A DNA stretch of 37,269 nucleotides from Bacteroidales bacterium. GTDB lineage: Bacteria > Bacteroidota > Bacteroidia > Bacteroidales > DTU049. Position numbers and translations under genes: made by a program. The notes below the pieces were generated by a model that saw only the letters and a list, made by a program, of their open reading frames with translations, had not been told where the DNA came from and did not search any database. Positions 6,499-32,090 of this stretch are shown here, one piece after another. Position 1 is the first letter of the stretch. Each line of letters starts with the position of its first letter. The stretch is taken from the NCBI GenBank assembly GCA_026418905.1, contig JAOAAK010000038.1:1-37269 (forward strand), given 5' to 3'.

Positions 6499-7578
6499 TT
6501 ATTCGTATTGTTTTGGTATAATTTCTCCTTTTAGATAGCTTATACCATTCGAAGCAAGAGCTTGCATTTCATCTTCACCAGGATATACAAATACAGGAGC
6601 TAGAAAAGATACACGTTCTTTAATCCACTCAACAAACATGTTATCGTATGCGATGCCTCCTGTAATTAAAATAGCATCAACTTCACCTTTTAACACTGTA
6701 GCACATGCACCAATTTCCTTAGATACTTGATAAGCCATAGCTTCGTAAATGAGTTTAGCGTATTGATCGCCTTCTTTAATCCGTTGCACCACTTCAATGG
6801 CATCATTCGTTCCTAAATAAGCCACAAGACCACCTTGTCCGGTGATCATTTTTTTAACTTCTTCATGGGTAACTTCACCACTAAAACACAACTTAGCTAG
6901 CTCGCCTACGGGTAAGGTGCCACTTCGCTCAGGAGAAAAAGGTCCTTCGCCATCTAGAGCCTGATTGACATCAACAACCCTGCCTTTTCGATGAGCACCT
7001 ACGCTAATACCACCACCTAAATGCGCTACGATAAGATTTAGGTCTTCGTACTTTTTGCCTTGGGACTTTGCATGTAAACGGGCAATAGCTTTTTGATTAA
7101 GGGCATGAAAAATACTCACTCGTTTAAAACGAGGATGTCCAGAAATACGAGCTATATCATCTAATTCATCCACGACAACTGGATCAGCAATAAATGCCTT
7201 AGTTCCAGGTATTTCACGGGCAATATCGTCAGCTATTAAACCACCTAAGTTGCTTGCATGCTGCCCCAAAACTCCTACTTTTAGATCCTCTTTCATTCTT
7301 TCATTGACTTCGTACATTCCAGAAGGTATGGGTTTGATAAGACCACCACGCCCGACAATAATTCTAATGTCCTGAATATTAATACCGGCGTTTCGCAAAG
7401 TTTCAAGAATAACTTTTTTACGGAATTCATATTGATCGGTGATGGTTGGAAAAGGGGCAAGTTCTTCAACACTATGCTTAATATTGGTCAGTAAAAGCTT
7501 ATCACCGTTAATATTAAAAACTGCAATCTTTGTTGATGTCGACCCTGGGTTAATGACTAAAATTAATTGGTTTTCCAT
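6499..7578 (-). CDS. buk: Butyrate kinase
   Basis: 359-residue acetokinase-family enzyme converting butyryl phosphate and ADP to butyrate and ATP (or the branched-chain equivalents). Motifs: ILVINPGSTSTKIAVF at the N-terminus (phosphate loop), VGRGGLIKP, HLGGGISVGAH, GPFSPERSGTLP and the late ITGGIAYD adenosine site. The length and GPFSPERSG are those of Buk and not of acetate kinase (about 400 residues). It follows ptb with an 11-base gap on the same strand, so the pair makes ATP from an acyl-CoA. Its stop codon (6499-6501) touches the stop codon of the convergent transketolase gene. Confidence 0.95.
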   Translation of the reverse strand: MENQLILVINPGSTSTKIAVFNINGDKLLLTNIKHSVEELAPFPTITDQYEFRKKVILETLRNAGINIQDIRIIVGRGGLIKPIPSGMYEVNERMKEDLKVGVLGQHASNLGGLIADDIAREIPGTKAFIADPVVVDELDDIARISGHPRFKRVSIFHALNQKAIARLHAKSQGKKYEDLNLIVAHLGGGISVGAHRKGRVVDVNQALDGEGPFSPERSGTLPVGELAKLCFSGEVTHEEVKKMITGQGGLVAYLGTNDAIEVVQRIKEGDQYAKLIYEAMAYQVSKEIGACATVLKGEVDAILITGGIAYDNMFVEWIKERVSFLAPVFVYPGEDEMQALASNGISYLKGEIIPKQYE

Positions 7579-7589
7579 ATGTTTATCTA

Positions 7590-8495
7590 TTAAACAGCTA
7601 ACAATGATGCTAGAGCAATGGAATAGGTCTTTGTTCTGGCACTGTCGCCACGAGAAGTAAGAACAGCTGGAGCTTTAGCACCAATGACTACAGCAGCCAA
7701 TTCAGCATGTATGAATTTGGTACATGTCTTGAAAAATACATTTCCAGCTTCAATATTTGGAAAAACTAGCACATCAGCGTCACCAGCTACAGGGCTATCT
7801 AATTTTTTAATCTGAACACTTTCTTTATCTATTGCCACATCCAAAGCAAGTGGACCATCTATCTGAGCACCTTTGATTTGCTTTCTATCACCCATTTTAC
7901 TGATAATAGCAGCATCAACACAAGCCTGCATACCGATAGACATCTGTTCTGTTGCAGCAATGAGAGCAACCTTTGGATTTTCTATGCCAAGCTTATGAGC
8001 TACGTCGATGAGATAACCAGTTATGACTATTTTTTGCTGGAGATCTGGAGCGGGAATAATAGCCACATCTCCGACAATAAGCAATTTATGATAGGTAGGA
8101 ATTTCCAACACTGTAACATGACTCAGTATTGCTTTGGGAGGTAATAGACCTTTGTCTTTATCTAAAATGACTCTCATATACTTGTCCGTACTGAGCAAGC
8201 CCTTCATGAGAACATCAGCTTCGCCTTTGTTTATCATTTCGACAGCCAAATAACCACATTTCATCTCGTCTTTTTCATCAACAATATCAAAAACTTTAAG
8301 ATCAAAATTAAGTTTTTCACAAATTTGAGTGATAATTTGCCTGTCTCCAATAAGAATAGGCTTAACCAACCCTATTTGTGCAGCATCATAAACAGCTTCA
8401 ATGGAATGTTCATCATTGGCATAGGCCACTACCAATCTTTTTAAACCTTTTTCTTTTGCTTTATCTATGATTTGATCCAATTTTGCTATTGACAT
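7590..8495 (-). CDS. ptb: Phosphate butyryltransferase
   Basis: 301-residue phosphate acetyl/butyryltransferase-family enzyme forming butyryl phosphate from butyryl-CoA and Pi. Motifs: ANDEHSIEAVYDA, KPILIGD, GEADVLMKGLLSTDKYMRVILDK, IPAPDLQQKIVITGYLIDVA, DGPLALDVAIDKES and the closing SRGDSARTKTYSIALA. The length (~300) and the adjacent buk separate it from Pta. Upstream on the minus strand are a -7-like TACTTTCG (8529-8522) and a G5 run (8508-8504) eight bases before the ATG. That is an unusually strong Shine-Dalgarno-like site for this phylum. No acyl-CoA biosynthesis genes are in the window, so the substrate (butyryl, isobutyryl, isovaleryl) is open. Confidence 0.94.
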   Translation of the reverse strand: MSIAKLDQIIDKAKEKGLKRLVVAYANDEHSIEAVYDAAQIGLVKPILIGDRQIITQICEKLNFDLKVFDIVDEKDEMKCGYLAVEMINKGEADVLMKGLLSTDKYMRVILDKDKGLLPPKAILSHVTVLEIPTYHKLLIVGDVAIIPAPDLQQKIVITGYLIDVAHKLGIENPKVALIAATEQMSIGMQACVDAAIISKMGDRKQIKGAQIDGPLALDVAIDKESVQIKKLDSPVAGDADVLVFPNIEAGNVFFKTCTKFIHAELAAVVIGAKAPAVLTSRGDSARTKTYSIALASLLAV

Positions 8496-11818: not shown

Positions 11819-13882
11819 TTAAAATTTGTAGCCATGAAGTGGTGTGATATTGCCATAACGCTTGACAATATCTGGTAGATAACTTTTGATAAATTCAAAG
11901 ATGATTTCATCTTTTTCTTCATTCGAGGTAAAAGTCCTGCTATCTATTTTTTCATCATTTATGTAAAGCCCTACATGATTTTCGTAAACCTCGATTAGAG
12001 GACTATCAGGTAGTAGTTGTTCAAGTAGAGTTACTTCTTCAGCATATGCAGCATCGTCGAGCACTACTATGTCTGCTCCCTGGAAAAGCATTCCATAATC
12101 ATAAATATCATCTTTTTCTTCGGTAAAAAGTGCAAAACTAAGTTGAGGCTTTCTTAGAATAATTTTTTCATTTTGGATATGATCTTCATTTTTGAAGAAA
12201 TATTCTCCGTTGAAATAAACACCATCGCTAAGAAGTGCACCAAATACTGCATCAGGTTCAAGTTCGTGAATGAGATCATTGATCTTAAGCATAAGATTTT
12301 TACTGAAGTAATTACCAGCGATAATAGGTATACGAGCATTTTCAGGTTTACCAAAATGAGACATAATGATCATACCGGGAACATCTATAGAACCACCATA
12401 AGCAGGTGCAAGATGCATAAAGACACCAGGACCTGCATTGATTTCAATAATACCAAAATCACCTTCTTTCCACGAACGTGATATATCAGCTGCAAGAACA
12501 TCTATTCCAAGGTTTCTAATGGTAAAATAAGATGCTATGTCTTCCACAAGTTTTATGTTGTCGGGGTGGATTTTATCCGTAACATTGATAGATACACCAC
12601 CAGCACTGATATTGGCTACGCGACGCAATGTGATATTTTCACCAGCAGGTGGAACATCATCAAGGGTCTTACCTTGGAGTGAGAGAAAATTAATTAGATC
12701 CTCATCAATTTTAATTTTTGCTAAAGGACTACGAGCGTTATCTAAACGAATTTCTTTGGCATTCTCAATTTCAATAAGTTGCTTAATGGTATGCACACCG
12801 TCTCCTACCACATAGGCTGGCACACGTTGAAGTGCTGCAGCAAACTTACCGTTCACAGCCAAAAGACGATGGTCTGTCCCTTGGATTTGCTTCTGAACCA
12901 AAGCTCCTGCAAAAGGAACATTGTTTTCTTCGCTCATAGTTATGATCTTCTGATAAGCTTCTCTTACTTGATCAGCATTCATAATACCAGTTGTAACGCC
13001 TTGACCTTTGTGTCCGTTTACTGGTTTAACAACACAAGGATAGCCAACTTTTTCGGCTGCGTCTACAGCGGCATCCTCAGAGAAAGTATTATAGCCACGT
13101 GGCGTAGGGAAACCACACATTTCAAGAAACTCTCCTACCATGTCCTTATACATCGTAAACTCAGTATCCTTGATACCATCGTTATGGAAAGTAGTTGAAC
13201 GACCACGAAGCTGCTTTTTACCATAACCCCATTGAAACTCATTCTCTTCCCAAATGTAAAAAATAGGAATATTTCTTTTAAGGCCTGCTTCTATCAGAGA
13301 ATAAAGAGTTGGCCCACCAAAGAGTGTTTTATCAAAATCGTCCTGTAGTTTTTTCCATTCACCTATGAAATCGAATCTTCTGTCTTTTGATAATGCATAA
13401 AACCAATCACTTACAAGATAAGCACAATTTTCAGCTACTCGTTTGTCGAAGTATTCAATCGCAATTACATACTCGTCCCTGTCTCTACTTATTCGGTAAT
13501 CTTTCAGATACAAATCAATGTCCATCTTTAAAGTATGAAGCAGAACTTCAGCAAAAAATTCAACCACTCTTTCCGCCTTGCTTTCTTTTAATGCTGGAAT
13601 AACTTCCCCTACCTTTTCTTTATAAAACTCCACTGTATCGCCGACTGGTGCGATAAAGATATTAAATACCATAGCTTTTTTAGGTAAGTAATAATTTGGC
13701 CCATCATAAAAGGCAAACTTGCTCACTTTAAAATCCTTCATATCAAAAAGTTCATACTTATATTCCCGGTCTTTTAAAGCTTCTTCCTCCAATTGCTTTT
13801 TCACAGATTCAAGCAATTTTTTGGCTGCTTCCAGCTCATCGCTCACATTTCCCTGATTCATGTTTAATTCTTCGTTATTCAT
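11819..13882 (-). CDS. Cyanophycin-synthetase-like ATP-grasp protein with truncated, P-loop-less Mur-ligase remnant
   Basis: 687 residues. After a charged leader of about 45 residues, it follows cyanophycin synthetase CphA1 domain by domain: N-terminal domain (GPNYYLP, IEYFDKRVAE), PTLYSLIEAGLKRNIP, then an ATP-grasp domain with YPCVVKPVNGHKGQGV (281-296), GTDHRLL (335-341), AAALQRVPA, RRVANISAGGVSINVTDKIHP (420-440) and the Mg ligands in IIEINAGPG (478-486). All ATP-grasp landmarks are intact. CphA1 then continues RIPI..GTNGKTT into a Mur-ligase domain; here RIPI (517-520) is followed by IAGNYFSKN with no GKT/S. The downstream match (SDGVYFNGEYF 552-562) is recognisable, but the ETARGG motif is replaced by TEEKDDI, and the protein ends some 200 residues early. 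So it could add a residue by ATP-grasp but not by Mur chemistry. True cyanophycin synthesis is unlikely. Confidence 0.85.
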   Translation of the reverse strand: MNNEELNMNQGNVSDELEAAKKLLESVKKQLEEEALKDREYKYELFDMKDFKVSKFAFYDGPNYYLPKKAMVFNIFIAPVGDTVEFYKEKVGEVIPALKESKAERVVEFFAEVLLHTLKMDIDLYLKDYRISRDRDEYVIAIEYFDKRVAENCAYLVSDWFYALSKDRRFDFIGEWKKLQDDFDKTLFGGPTLYSLIEAGLKRNIPIFYIWEENEFQWGYGKKQLRGRSTTFHNDGIKDTEFTMYKDMVGEFLEMCGFPTPRGYNTFSEDAAVDAAEKVGYPCVVKPVNGHKGQGVTTGIMNADQVREAYQKIITMSEENNVPFAGALVQKQIQGTDHRLLAVNGKFAAALQRVPAYVVGDGVHTIKQLIEIENAKEIRLDNARSPLAKIKIDEDLINFLSLQGKTLDDVPPAGENITLRRVANISAGGVSINVTDKIHPDNIKLVEDIASYFTIRNLGIDVLAADISRSWKEGDFGIIEINAGPGVFMHLAPAYGGSIDVPGMIIMSHFGKPENARIPIIAGNYFSKNLMLKINDLIHELEPDAVFGALLSDGVYFNGEYFFKNEDHIQNEKIILRKPQLSFALFTEEKDDIYDYGMLFQGADIVVLDDAAYAEEVTLLEQLLPDSPLIEVYENHVGLYINDEKIDSRTFTSNEEKDEIIFEFIKSYLPDIVKRYGNITPLHGYKF

Positions 13883-13888
13883 ATGCTT

Positions 13889-15067
13889 TTATTTTTTTAA
13901 AAACTTTTTTAAAATTTCTTCGGCTTCCCTGCGGAAGGCTTTTTCTTCTTCTAATTGTTTCTTGAGTTGATCGTATTCTTCACGAGAAATGACTTCATGT
14001 ACCTGTGATTTCATTTTTTCGATTTCTTCTCTATAGTTTTTTATTTCTTGGATCAAAAGCTGATTTTCTTCACATTTTTTTTCATAATCGATTCTCCAAG
14101 AAAGAGCATCGGAAAGTTGCTTTTTAATTTCCGCAAGTTCAATCAACAATCTTTCATTTTCGTCTTGTAAAGGCTTTAAGCTATATTCTTCAGACTCTTT
14201 TTCAAGTTGATCTTTCACCTTCTTGATTTGAGCTATTTCTCCTTGCAAAGCAACAATATACTGTTCCTTTTCAGCAAGCAAAGTAGTATAATGATCATTC
14301 AGTTGTTGCAAATCTTGTTTTAGTTTAGCTACTTCATTTTTAAGATTATCATTTTCTCCCATCAAGGAATTATTTTTGAGTTGCTCGGTTCTTAATTGCT
14401 GAATTTCAGACTCAAGTAAAGGAATTTTCGAAACTTTTTGTTTCAAATCATCCCTTTCAAATATAAGGGTTGAAATTTGATTTTCTAAGCTATTTTTTTC
14501 ATTCCTAAATGTTGATTCCTTATTTTCTAATTCAACTTTCAAGAGTTTAAGCTCCTCTTGTAATTTTTTCACTTCTTCTTCAGCAATATTAGCTTTCTCG
14601 ACCAGCGAAAGCATAGTCTTTATCTTTTTCTTGCATGAAACCGATTTGATAATGAAAGCTAACATGAAAACGAGCCAAAGAATTAATAAACCTCCTACAA
14701 TGCCTAATGCATAATATTTGTATTTTTCATAATATCCATAAAATTCCAAGGGTTTTTTCACCTGATTTTCTAATTCCTGCCGAGCATAAACCAAGGAATC
14801 TACCTTATGAGTGTGAGACGACTGTACAAGACTTAAAAGGCTGTCTTCCTTGAGAAGAAACGTATCGAGTTTGAATATAAGCTTACGCAAAACTTTTTTC
14901 GAAGAATCGTTAATACTGATTATGTAAAATTTTAAATCATTAACAAGATCAGTTCTTTTTTGCCATAAAATACTATCGTTTATAGTCGAATTTGCCTCAT
15001 TCTGCTGTGATTGAATACTAAGATAAAAAAAAGACATCGCTACTAAAAATAAGCTAAGTTTTTTCAT
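13889..15067 (-). CDS. Membrane-anchored long coiled-coil protein of unknown function
   Basis: 392 residues; not recognised beyond its architecture. Residues 1-20 look like a signal peptide (FLVAMSFFYLSIQSQ). A periplasmic region of about 95 residues follows, then one transmembrane helix (YALGIVGGLLILWLVFMLAFII, about 119-140), a basic patch (CKKKIK) and about 235 residues of heptad-rich Glu/Lys/Leu/Gln coiled coil predicted to be cytoplasmic (ENKESTFRNEKNSLENQIST and similar). It lies 6 bases upstream of the cyanophycin-synthetase-like gene with its own promoter, so the two are almost surely co-transcribed. A role in anchoring or positioning the partner enzyme at the membrane is inference. 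Confidence 0.75.
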   Translation of the reverse strand: MKKLSLFLVAMSFFYLSIQSQQNEANSTINDSILWQKRTDLVNDLKFYIISINDSSKKVLRKLIFKLDTFLLKEDSLLSLVQSSHTHKVDSLVYARQELENQVKKPLEFYGYYEKYKYYALGIVGGLLILWLVFMLAFIIKSVSCKKKIKTMLSLVEKANIAEEEVKKLQEELKLLKVELENKESTFRNEKNSLENQISTLIFERDDLKQKVSKIPLLESEIQQLRTEQLKNNSLMGENDNLKNEVAKLKQDLQQLNDHYTTLLAEKEQYIVALQGEIAQIKKVKDQLEKESEEYSLKPLQDENERLLIELAEIKKQLSDALSWRIDYEKKCEENQLLIQEIKNYREEIEKMKSQVHEVISREEYDQLKKQLEEEKAFRREAEEILKKFLKK

Positions 15068-29017: not shown

Positions 29018-30535
29018 ATGGTACGTGTTAGATTTGCTCCTAGTCCTACAGGACCTTTACACATTGGTGGTGTACGAACAGCCCTTTACAACTATTTTTT
29101 TGCACGTAAACATCACGGTGTTTTCATCTTAAGAATTGAAGATACGGATCAACAACGATATGTCCCTGGTGCTGAGGAATATATTATAGAGAGTCTTACA
29201 TGGTGTGGTATTAAATTCGACGAAGGTCCTCATTTGGGTGGTCCTTATGCTCCATACAAACAAAGCGAAAGAAAAGAAATTTACAGACAATATGTAGACT
29301 ATCTCGTACAACAAGGTTTTGCATATTATGCTTTTGAAACTCCAGAAGAACTCGAAGAATTGCGCAAAAACTATCAAGAAAGGAATCTTACTTTTCAATA
29401 CGATTGTCGAACACGAAAAAATCTTAAAAATTCTTTGGCTTTACCAGAAAAAATATGGAAAACATGGATTAATGAAGGAAAACCTTATGTGATACGCTTT
29501 AAAATCCCCGAACATAAGAATATCATTTTCGAAGATCTCATCAGAGGAAAAATTGAAGTTAGTTCAAATCAGCTCGACGATAAAGTCCTTTTTAAGAGTG
29601 ACGGCATGCCAACGTATCATCTTGCAAATGTAGTGGATGACCATTTAATGGGCATAACCCATGTTATTCGAGGAGAAGAATGGCTACCATCAGCACCTTT
29701 ACACGTTCTTATGTACGAAGCTTTTAATTGGGAAATGCCTGCCTTTGCTCATCTGCCTTTGCTACTCAAGCCTGATGGACAAGGAAAACTCAGTAAACGC
29801 GACGGCGACAGACTTGGTTTTCCTGTTTTTCCCCTTGCATGGCGAGATCCCTTCACGGGTGAAGAAATCAGAGGTTACCGCGAAGATGGATATCTTCCAG
29901 ATGCACTGGTCAATTTTCTTGCTTTGCTTGGCTGGAACCCCGGCAACGATAAAGAACTCATGAGTATGGAAGAAATGATCGAACTCTTTTCACTTGACCG
30001 TATTAGCAAAAGCGGTGCTCATTTCGATCTACAAAAAGCCAAATGGTTTAATAAGCAATACCTGAACCTCAAAGACAACGAAGAACTCTTGCCTTTTCTA
30101 CAAAATTACTATCACCAACATCATCAATTACAGCTCGAGCCCGAAATTCTCAAAATCGTCATCTCACTCATGAAGGAAAGATCTGATACTCTCATCGACC
30201 TAGCTGAAAAATCTCTTTTCTTTTTTAAAGCACCAACTACCTATAACATTAAAGTTTTTGAGAAATATGTTTTCCAATCTTATGATGAAATACTGTTGAT
30301 TACAATAAATAAACTTAAGGAGACAAAGTGGAACGAAAGCGAAATAGATCAAACTTTACAAACTATCTTGAAAGAATATCAAATTTCAACGGGAAAATTC
30401 TTTAATATTTTAAGACTTGCCATCGTAGGTGACTCATATGGACCGCACCTAGCATCTATATTGCACTTAATAGGCCAAGCTGAAACCATATCTCGAATTG
30501 AAAAATTTATCCAAAACACAAAAAATAAACCTTAA
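29018..30535 (+). CDS. gltX: Glutamate-tRNA ligase
   Basis: 505 residues, class I aminoacyl-tRNA synthetase. RFAPSPTGPLHIGGVRTALYN carries the HIGH motif, RIEDTDQQRYVPG the next conserved block, and GKLSKRDGDRLGFPVFPLAW the KMSKS-equivalent in the form usual for Bacteroidota. The GEEWLPSAPLHVLMYEAFNW and EEMIELFSLDRISKSGAHFDLQKAKWFN blocks and a helical anticodon-binding end are complete. Whether it is discriminating (Glu only) or also charges tRNA-Gln cannot be decided here. Confidence 0.97.
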   Translation: MVRVRFAPSPTGPLHIGGVRTALYNYFFARKHHGVFILRIEDTDQQRYVPGAEEYIIESLTWCGIKFDEGPHLGGPYAPYKQSERKEIYRQYVDYLVQQGFAYYAFETPEELEELRKNYQERNLTFQYDCRTRKNLKNSLALPEKIWKTWINEGKPYVIRFKIPEHKNIIFEDLIRGKIEVSSNQLDDKVLFKSDGMPTYHLANVVDDHLMGITHVIRGEEWLPSAPLHVLMYEAFNWEMPAFAHLPLLLKPDGQGKLSKRDGDRLGFPVFPLAWRDPFTGEEIRGYREDGYLPDALVNFLALLGWNPGNDKELMSMEEMIELFSLDRISKSGAHFDLQKAKWFNKQYLNLKDNEELLPFLQNYYHQHHQLQLEPEILKIVISLMKERSDTLIDLAEKSLFFFKAPTTYNIKVFEKYVFQSYDEILLITINKLKETKWNESEIDQTLQTILKEYQISTGKFFNILRLAIVGDSYGPHLASILHLIGQAETISRIEKFIQNTKNKP

Positions 30536-30540
30536 ATTTG
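30533..30540 (+). promoter_or_regulatory. -7 element of the GH3-family gene
   Basis: TAAATTTG overlaps the gltX stop codon (30533-30535) and lies 17 bases before the ATG at 30558. It also shows that the in-frame TTG at 30498, inside gltX, is not the start. Confidence 0.5.
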
Positions 30541-30557
30541 CAAAAACACACACGAAA

Positions 30558-32090
30558 ATGCCATTGATCAGCGCTTTAATTAAGAATGCCATTGAATTCA
30601 ATAGTAAACTTCCCAAAATCAAGAGACAAAATCCTATCAAAGCACAACAAAAAGTTTTAAAAAAGTTACTCAAAAAAGCTTCGAAGACTGCATTTGGTGA
30701 ATATTACGATTTCGAAAAAATTTTAAATACACAAGATTTCGAAAAATCATTTAGAGAAAACATTCCTATATTTGACTATAACAAAATACACAACGAATGG
30801 TGGTATCGTTCATTGCTCGGTGAAACAGATGTAACCTGGCCTGGAAAAGTGAAATATTTTGCACTCAGCTCTGGCACAAGTGAAGCATCAAGTAAATACA
30901 TTCCTATTACCAACGATATGCTCAGAGCAATTAAAAAGACTTCTGTCCGAACTTTACTAGCGCTTGCCAATTTTGATATTCCAAAAGACTTTTTTTCTCA
31001 CAAAATCCTTATGTTAGGAGGAAGTACCCATCTTCAATATAATGGCACTTATTATGCTGGTGACCTTAGCGGTATTACCACTGGAAATATTCCTTTTTGG
31101 TTTCAATTTTATTATAAACCTGGTAAGAAAATAAGTCGCGAACGAGATTGGGAAAAAAAATTAGAAGAAATAGTCAACAACGCACCCAAATGGGACATAG
31201 GCGCAATTGTTGGTGTTCCTTCATGGTTTCAGATCCTTTTTTTAAAAATCATCGAAAAATACCAACTTAATCATATTCACGAGATTTGGCCCAATCTTAC
31301 CATATTCACACATGGCGGTGTAAGTTTTATACCATATAAAAAAAGTTTCGAAAAATTACTGGGTAAGCCATTGATATATTTAGAAACCTATCTTGCCTCG
31401 GAAGGTTACATTGCTTTTCAGAACAAACCTAACGTCGACTCGATGGCTCTCGTCTACGATAATGGAATTTACTATGAATTTATTCCTTTTAATGATAAAA
31501 ACTTTGATAGTGATGGCAATTTGGTAGATAACCCTGAAACCATCACACTCAAAGACGTACAACCCAACACCGAGTATGCTATTTTACTTAGCACAGTAGC
31601 TGGGGCATGGAGGTATCTCATCGGTGATGTCATTAAATTTACTTCCGTCTTACCTTACGAGTTGCAAATTGTTGGACGCACTAAGCACTATCTAAGTGTT
31701 TGCGGAGAACATCTTAGCGTTGAAAATATGACTCGTGCCATCGAGCTTCTAGAGCATGATTATAAAGTTTCTGTTCCCGAATTCACCGTTGCTGCTTTGC
31801 CTTACCAAGGTATGTTTATGCATAAATGGTGGCTTGGAACCAATCAACATATTGATCCAGTTGTTGCTGCCAACGCCATAGATAATTACCTTAAAAACCT
31901 GAACGACGACTATCGGACTGAAAGACTTGAAGCCATTCGCAAAGTTGAAGTGGAAGTCCTACCTCTCCAATTGTTTTACGATTACTTGAAAAGCATTGGG
32001 AAAATTGGAGCACAGATCAAGTTTCCACGCGTTATGAAGAAAAACTTAGAAGATTGGATAGCTTTCGTCGAAAAAAATAAAAATCGGTGA
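30558..32090 (+). CDS. GH3-family acyl-acid amido synthetase
   Basis: 510 residues. The GH3 auxin-responsive family belongs to the adenylate-forming superfamily; plant members conjugate acyl acids to amino acids. Visible are the phosphate-binding loop FALSSGTSEASSKYIPIT, LGGSTHLQYNGTYYAGDLSGIT, GVPSWFQILF, THGGVSFIPYKKSFEKLL, TYLASEGYIAFQ and the hinge/ATP region YLIGDVIKFTS..LQIVGRTKHYLSVCGEHLSVENMT. Bacterial members are widespread in Bacteroidota, without an established substrate. Start at ATG 30558 after its own -7 element. The stop overlaps a GTG start of the LysE-type exporter by 4 nt, an appealing pairing of an amino-acid conjugating enzyme with an amino-acid exporter. Confidence 0.92.
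   Translation: MPLISALIKNAIEFNSKLPKIKRQNPIKAQQKVLKKLLKKASKTAFGEYYDFEKILNTQDFEKSFRENIPIFDYNKIHNEWWYRSLLGETDVTWPGKVKYFALSSGTSEASSKYIPITNDMLRAIKKTSVRTLLALANFDIPKDFFSHKILMLGGSTHLQYNGTYYAGDLSGITTGNIPFWFQFYYKPGKKISRERDWEKKLEEIVNNAPKWDIGAIVGVPSWFQILFLKIIEKYQLNHIHEIWPNLTIFTHGGVSFIPYKKSFEKLLGKPLIYLETYLASEGYIAFQNKPNVDSMALVYDNGIYYEFIPFNDKNFDSDGNLVDNPETITLKDVQPNTEYAILLSTVAGAWRYLIGDVIKFTSVLPYELQIVGRTKHYLSVCGEHLSVENMTRAIELLEHDYKVSVPEFTVAALPYQGMFMHKWWLGTNQHIDPVVAANAIDNYLKNLNDDYRTERLEAIRKVEVEVLPLQLFYDYLKSIGKIGAQIKFPRVMKKNLEDWIAFVEKNKNR

Follow-up and report, generated by a model that had tools for sequence, protein, structure and literature searches.

CphA2 is a cyanophycin synthetase without the Mur P-loop and Mlid, and joins beta-Asp-Arg dipeptides directly (PMC9427784, PMC10206079). 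PMC9262961 and PMC10206079 describe it as an enzyme of cyanobacteria, and absence of the motif C-x19-HxxEH serves as a criterion for it (PMC9262961). CphA2 is also named in a Sideroxydans paper (PMC5178258). CphA-like proteins of Bacillus horikoshii 20a have kept the Asp residues and miss the Arg-incorporation residues, like CphA2/CphA2′ (PMC5532821); these are Bacillota proteins and are likened to CphA2 by description only. In Bacteroidota, 86 genomes have been counted with CphA1, all of them with cyanophycinase and 22% with IadA/IaaA (PMC10206079). Among the matches listed in a search of titles and abstracts, which leaves the subscription literature mostly uncovered, none dealt with CphA2 in Bacteroidota or with a split form of CphA1.

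The window analyzed here is the whole 37,269-nucleotide stretch of contig JAOAAK010000038.1 from a Bacteroidales bacterium. Positions 11819–13882 (minus strand) encode a CphA2-type cyanophycin synthetase of 687 amino acids, termed P0001. A Mur-less architecture with an intact ATP-grasp domain is not new; CphA2, which polymerizes beta-Asp-Arg, is built in this way. What is new is the presence of CphA2 outside the cyanobacteria, often as a cphB-cphA2-iadA operon; a sub-clade, to which the window protein belongs, with an additional helix at the N-terminus and in most cases an adjoining membrane coiled-coil gene; and, in most of the genomes, a second protein derived from CphA1 whose cutting N site is intact and whose G-site histidine is gone.

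Sequence and fold of the window protein

The P0001 reading frame is intact over 687 codons on the minus strand (open reading frame list of the window), and the corresponding frame on the plus strand of 11819–13882 has many stops. The protein matches the cyanophycin synthetase profiles PRK14016 (E-value = 3.4e-102, protein positions 53–611) and TIGR02068 (E-value = 1.4e-96, positions 58–608), with the match stopping about 290 profile positions early. The TIGR02068 score is 324 bits against an NCBIfam cut-off of 850 bits, which places the protein outside CphA1 by this score; it is also far below the PRK14016 cut-off. The ATP-grasp signature is present as KPVNGHKGQGV and EINAGPG. The segment RIPIIAGNYFSKN contains no P-loop, and none follows RIPI; the M domain is not of the Mur type with P-loop and Mlid. 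A sequence-only reading of this DNA had described the intact ATP-grasp domain, the absent P-loop and the shortened C-terminus, and these features are borne out. It had also argued against a fresh pseudogene, which is ruled out by the 687 open codons together with the presence of all checked catalytic positions. A promoter and terminator scan gave no more sites than shuffled sequence.

The solved proteins nearest in sequence are CphA2 from Gloeothece citriformis (7ta5, E-value = 1.6e-142) and from Stanieria sp. (8fxh/8fxi, E-value = 8.5e-130); the best CphA1 structure is 7lgn (E-value = 2.7e-67). An AlphaFold2 model built from 47 sequences has a pLDDT of 90 and a pTM of 0.83. Foldseek orders its matches as 7ta5 (E-value = 9.3e-66, TMt 0.94), the 8fxi/8fxh chains, and then CphA1. 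VIA also ranks 7ta5 first (Z 35.5, rmsd 2.2 Å, 583 aligned residues, 43% identity), with TeCphA1 7wae within 1 Z unit of it (Z 34.9) at an rmsd of 4.4 Å. In the VIA alignments the identity to cyanobacterial CphA1 structures is 26%–27%. The earlier reading of the protein as a cyanophycin synthetase relative holds, but it was likened to CphA1, and CphA2 (7ta5) is nearer.

Four regions can be distinguished, all on the minus strand. A predicted helical extension (13736–13849, residues 12–49) precedes the N domain (13325–13735, about residues 50–186, limits approximate), which has no C-x19-HxxEH motif. The ATP-grasp or G domain (12335–13324, about residues 187–516) is followed by an M-core scaffold (11861–12334, about residues 517–674) that has neither P-loop nor Mlid and matches the M-core fold of CphA1 and CphA2. 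Structural alignment of the model extends as far as its residue 671; the matching chains are covered to residue 709 in CphA1 and to residue 636 in CphA2 8fxi. The stretch after residue 515, whose fold had been proposed as a check, thus folds as a Mur-core scaffold and not in an unrelated way.

P0001 resembles the CphA2 proteins 7ta5 and 8fxh/8fxi in fold, length, a live-looking G domain, an M core without P-loop and Mlid, the lack of the N-domain peptidase motif, and F/Y at the position of CphA1 R458. It differs from the cyanobacterial CphA2 members in sequence (35%–43% identity) and in its host lineage, which is outside the cyanobacteria. The 38-residue N-terminal helix and the frequent coiled-coil membrane neighbor of its clade, as well as the cphB-cphA2-iadA clusters in which the operon-type relatives often lie, are further differences. 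With CphA1 (SuCphA1 7lg5, TeCphA1 7wac, TmCphA1 7lgn, AbCphA1 7lgm) it shares the order of N, G and M core and the ATP-grasp catalytic residues, but it lacks the Mur P-loop, the Mlid and C-x19-HxxEH, has R458 replaced, and falls in another clade. GshF/GshAB (3ln6, 3ln7) resemble it in the ATP-grasp module (VIA Z 25–28), however only 316–327 residues align, and cyanophycin synthetases are characterized by a His in the P-loop of the G domain (PMC9427784).

Sampled loci and phylogeny

Genome contigs were scanned with the patterns FGIIEINA and [VI]KPV[NA]GHK. This gave 80 loci, 52 non-cyanobacterial (L053–L103, L130) and 28 cyanobacterial. The non-cyanobacterial titles are mostly Bacteroidota, with two Holophagae, one SAR324 and one Eisenbacteria. 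Five MAG titles name other phyla while their sequences fall among or beside those of Bacteroidota, and these MAGs may be misbinned or misnamed.

An unrooted tree of 73 rows places CphA1 and CphA2 on opposite sides of a single branch (SH-aLRT 100), with the 12 cyanobacterial CphA2 used forming a single group (support 99); the program warned of long branches in this tree (L103, L136 and the branch connecting CphA1). P0001 groups with cyanobacterial CphA2, away from CphA1, in this unrooted split. The split recurs when 25 rows lacking long end branches are used, and with these rows the AU test rejects a joining of Bacteroidota CphA2 with Bacteroidota CphA1 (p-AU = 1.06e-7 and 1.76e-7). By sequence, fold and tree, P0001 is a member of the CphA2 family. 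It is not, as had been proposed, a CphA1 that itself lost its Mur chemistry, but belongs to a characterized family that has this same architecture.

Active site

Active-site positions were mapped onto TeCphA1, with residue roles taken from PMC9427784, in an alignment of 47 CphA2 rows. TeCphA1 positions K261, H267, R309, R323, N394, E450, N452 and G456 correspond to K286, H291, R339, R353, N424, E480, N482 and G486 of P0001. Each of these eight catalytic positions is kept in all 47 rows, although for K286, H291, E480 and N482 the conservation is partly built in, because the loci were fetched by patterns containing GHK and EINA. The position of TeCphA1 R458, a residue near the alpha-carboxylate of free Asp (PMC9427784), is occupied by F in 38 of the 47 rows, Y in 6, N in 2 and L in 1. 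The N-domain peptidase motif of CphA1, C-x19-HxxEH, is present in none of the 47; one row (L095) has HxxEH without the cysteine. The Walker motif G..GK[ST] was found in none of the 47 homologs from residue 481 onward.

Genome context

The genome from which the window comes, 2.1 Mb in size and 97% complete, encodes a cyanophycinase above the TIGR02069 cut-off, in a 290-aa open reading frame, and an IadA isoaspartyl dipeptidase above cut-off. No maker of beta-Asp-Arg was recognized in it; other Mur-type matches were taken as peptidoglycan Mur ligases. Long CphA2 matches occur in 9 of 59 relatives, own genome included (the raw tally is 11/59; weaker matches in G022 and G026 cover the ATP-grasp part only and were counted as CphA2-negative). 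Cyanophycinase above cut-off is present in 9/9 of the CphA2-positive relatives vs. 5/50 of the others (Fisher 1.6e-7), and IadA in 8/9 vs. 6/50 (Fisher 1.1e-5). Among 47 non-cyanobacterial CphA2 genomes, own included, 44 have cyanophycinase above cut-off, two only below it and one has none, compared with 2 of 14 control genomes. The genome of locus L100 is outside the genome-wide counts of cyanophycinase and CphA1-type matches.

Of the 32 loci whose CphA2 has no N-terminal extension (contig ends truncate some of these), 16 have cyanophycinase as the immediate upstream gene and 17 have IadA as the immediate downstream gene. The corresponding numbers for 20 N-extended loci are 0 and 1, and a cyanophycin gene lies within the fetched flanks of only one of them (L071). 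G044 has the gene order cphB-cphA2-iadA-cphA1-like. In cyanobacteria cyanophycinase is nearby at 21/28 loci, but in no case on the same strand within the preceding 350 bp.

Several other observations were made. Five CphA2-negative relatives have cyanophycinase and IadA on one contig (G021:C24, G024:C153, G031:C84, G035:C15, G043:C103), resembling the scavenging loci that PMC10206079 credits to Ben Hania et al. A 649-aa protein (G000:C3:79159–79647; L169:4326–6275, minus strand) has a cyanophycinase-like S51 part behind an N-terminal part, and several relatives have long frames with S51 matches below cut-off. In the window, adjoining acyl kinase and phosphate acyltransferase open reading frames (6499–8495, minus strand) are presumably a butyrate kinase/phosphotransbutyrylase pair, and a 530-aa open reading frame (30498–32090, plus strand), judged by eye, we take to be like the GH3-type acyl-adenylating enzymes.

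N-terminal helix and membrane neighbor

The window's clade contains 24 other loci. Twenty of them share the helix, some 38 residues long and placed ahead of the N domain, whereas L065 and L077 have no extension and two more loci are cut. A profile of the extension matches the window and the 20 loci with E-values of 1.5e-15 or better; the remaining 60 loci give no match (E-value = 0.92 at best; three of the 60 are cut or have no anchor motif).

The gene at 13889–15067 (minus strand) encodes a 392-aa coiled-coil membrane protein with a signal peptide, one span near residues 120–140 and a long polar coiled coil. A gap of 6 bp separates its stop codon from the start of cphA2. The gene belongs to a real family, with leave-one-out E-values of 1.5e-11 to 6.2e-36 for 13 members and 5.2e-15 for the window copy. 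Besides the window, the gene is directly upstream in 11 of the 16 N-extended loci with 800 bp or more of sequence ahead of cphA2; L056, L057, L058, L064 and L066 are N-extended and have no adjoining copy. Elsewhere in the 80 loci the only convincing copy is in L093 (2241–3422, minus strand), divergent from cyanophycinase (E-value = 3.9e-10). The family profile matches at 2e-42 or better in six of 59 relatives, the same six that have an N-extended CphA2; since copies from all six were used to build the profile, only the lack of equally strong matches in the other 53 is informative (the best there are 8.5e-17 in G023, 1.8e-11 in G024 and 9.1e-11 in G016, with five more of 1e-6 to 1e-4). A further copy, at a contig end, is divergent from a CphA1-like gene (L163:5832–6548, minus strand). 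We infer that the helix binds the coiled-coil protein and so keeps CphA2 at the membrane.

A probable partner protein derived from CphA1

The window's genome also encodes a 699-aa CphA1 homolog (C32). It lies in a cluster (L037:6585–10326, minus strand) of PepE (S51), methyltransferase, CphA1-like and rhodanese genes. The same cluster occurs in G001, and G008 has it except for the rhodanese (families by Pfam for the own genome, by eye for the other two). In a Pfam search the CphA1 homolog matches the cyanophycin synthase N-terminal domain (E-value = 7.3e-40), with no family of ATP-grasp or Mur type reaching its cut-off, although phmmer still aligns the remainder with CphA1. The ATP-grasp loop, the Mur P-loop with its lysine, and the Mlid are gone.

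A CphA1-type match accompanies CphA2 in 41 of the 47 non-cyanobacterial genomes; in the other six there is none at an E-value of 1e-40. Some matches are partial: in G079 only profile positions 151–470 are covered, and in G076 the match is a fragment of the N domain where a contig ends. A standalone N domain in G037 and G076 was considered and rejected, as the frame leaves the contig end. Thirty-eight distinct CphA1-type open reading frames were recovered. After a G-domain-only paralog (L022, 365 aa) was dropped, five canonical CphA1 (two of them cyanobacterial) were compared with 32 others; the homologs of G065, G066, G084 and G099 were left out of this partner set, and the frames of L020 (contig end) and L146 (stop in frame) were read without the N domain.

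The N-site residues C59, H79, E82, H83, H57, S60, R70, E87 and T101 are present in all 30 partners that have an N domain. E607 of the M domain, which keeps the polymer in place at the N site (PMC9262961), is present in 32/32. The catalytic H267 of the G site, on the other hand, is found in none of the 31 with a G domain, and the G456 position is D or N in all 31. Mean identities of N, G and M core are 46/54/55% within the five canonical CphA1, which are few and come from several phyla. They are 60/49/40% among 26 other homologs and 61/35/29% among three of the window's family. Domain constraint is thus inverted in the partner relative to canonical CphA1, the M core being the least conserved domain.

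SuCphA1 made inactive in G (H267A), in M or in both causes a primer-dependent CphA1 to become primer-independent in trans (Sharon et al., PMC9262961), an effect that acts through the N domain (PMC9262961). With H267 missing and the cutting site intact, the partner looks like a natural counterpart of this published primer-maker.

Other arrangements were also seen. A SAR324 locus (L098:6933–11433) has cyanophycinase, CphA2 and a CphA1 homolog with N domain and M core and no ATP-grasp domain; the model of this 510-aa protein, made from five rows only, has a pLDDT of 62 and a pTM of 0.44, too poor for a fold search. Intact-looking CphA1 is found in three non-cyanobacterial genomes (L133, L136, L137), and G078 has a window-type CphA2 together with an intact-looking CphA1.

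Proposed function

Family, catalytic set, gene context, co-occurrence and partner conservation point to a CphA2 that recycles dipeptides together with cyanophycinase and IadA, on primers cut by the CphA1-derived partner; we give this reading, whose enzyme activity is inferred, a probability of about 0.7. CphA2 would use ATP to activate the backbone carboxylate at the C-terminus of a cyanophycin chain and then add a whole beta-Asp-Arg dipeptide, its probable substrate. Because the dipeptide would be added whole, no Mur domain would be needed, and the Mur-like remnant would be a structural core. The sequence-only reading had suggested an unbranched or oddly branched polymer; since P0001 belongs to CphA2, which polymerizes ready-made beta-Asp-Arg (PMC9427784, PMC10206079), ordinary branched cyanophycin is the expected product.

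Cyanophycinase would free beta-Asp-Arg from the polymer, IadA would split the portion to be burned, and CphA2 would relink the rest. The CphA1 descendant, its own synthetic sites lost, would cut primers by means of the endo-cyanophycinase site in its N domain. CphA2 has no polymer-cutting N site, so primers most likely come from this protein. Given that no beta-Asp-Arg maker was recognized in the window's genome, the dipeptide there should derive from imported or inherited polymer. The data suggest a division of labor, in which CphA2 polymerizes dipeptides and the CphA1 remnant cuts primers. Several observations weigh against it: no beta-Asp-Arg maker was recognized in the window's genome, G078 pairs a window-type CphA2 with an intact-looking CphA1, six of the 47 genomes have no CphA1-type match, and the partner's M domain may still be alive in relatives.

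A more far-reaching form of this proposal is tentative, and we would not bet on it in full. Here the synthetase function is split such that CphA2 is the sole polymerase and the CphA1 descendant a dedicated endo-cyanophycinase, its synthetic domains either a frame (E607) or decaying; the window's organism would live by salvage only, making no beta-Asp-Arg of its own, with its CphA2 tethered to the membrane by the coiled-coil neighbor.

Alternative explanations

As the window clade is mostly outside the cyanophycin operon, its substrate could have drifted. The N-extended proteins would then be CphA2 paralogs that polymerize or ligate another beta-aspartyl dipeptide, or make a short peptide, at the membrane. 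Seven of the 47 genomes do have two CphA2-type matches (G062, G063, G065, G073, G074, G077, and G079, one partial), and the clade has its own N-extension and often the membrane coiled-coil neighbor. We nevertheless consider this unlikely, as the eight catalytic positions and the F at the R458 position are identical to those of operon-type CphA2, and the window's genome has both cyanophycinase and IadA.

De novo synthesis could also be distributed over two proteins, the partner's M domain making beta-Asp-Arg from Asp and Arg and CphA2 polymerizing it. The P-loop lysine K499 is kept in 28 of 32 partners and the Mg ligand E558 in 31 of 32, so that the M domain may not be dead in these relatives. 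For D585/H586 of the M site the alignment is unsure and yields no usable count: DH is absent from the corresponding columns in every partner, but EH stands there in four, and a DH pair lies slightly further along in many. A C-terminal part of Mlid length is present in nine partners (one of them, L146, has a stop near the start of its frame), absent in 21 and cut by contig ends in two. Deletion of the Mlid substantially lowered TeCphA1 activity (PMC9427784), and the 21 partners end before it. With both P-loop lysine and Mlid gone in the window's own genome, and the M core the partner's least conserved domain, this explanation is improbable.

That P0001 is a non-catalytic scaffold or allosteric protein, a role which its extra helix and membrane coiled-coil neighbor might fit, is very improbable since the checked catalytic set is kept. 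A Mur-dead CphA1 that arose inside Bacteroidota independently of CphA2 has in its favor the same domain order and the occurrence of CphA1 homologs in that phylum, but can be dismissed as ruled out by the tree and AU tests, by the higher identity to CphA2 7ta5 than to cyanobacterial CphA1 (43% vs. 26%–27%), and by the absence of C-x19-HxxEH in 47/47.

Significance

Recycling of dipeptides by CphA2 with a primer-cutting partner, the preferred reading, bears on several questions. An isoaspartyl dipeptidase is offered for Bacteroidota, where PMC10206079 calls it undiscovered. The coiled-coil neighbor is a possible membrane anchor for cyanophycin synthesis. As the partner would be a natural version of a bench construct, the question of why CphA1 bears a cutting site becomes directly testable. 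CphA2 is found in genomes of Bacteroidota, Holophagae and SAR324, where cyanophycinase almost always and IadA frequently accompanies it, and repolymerizing of dipeptides therefore looks like a wider strategy.
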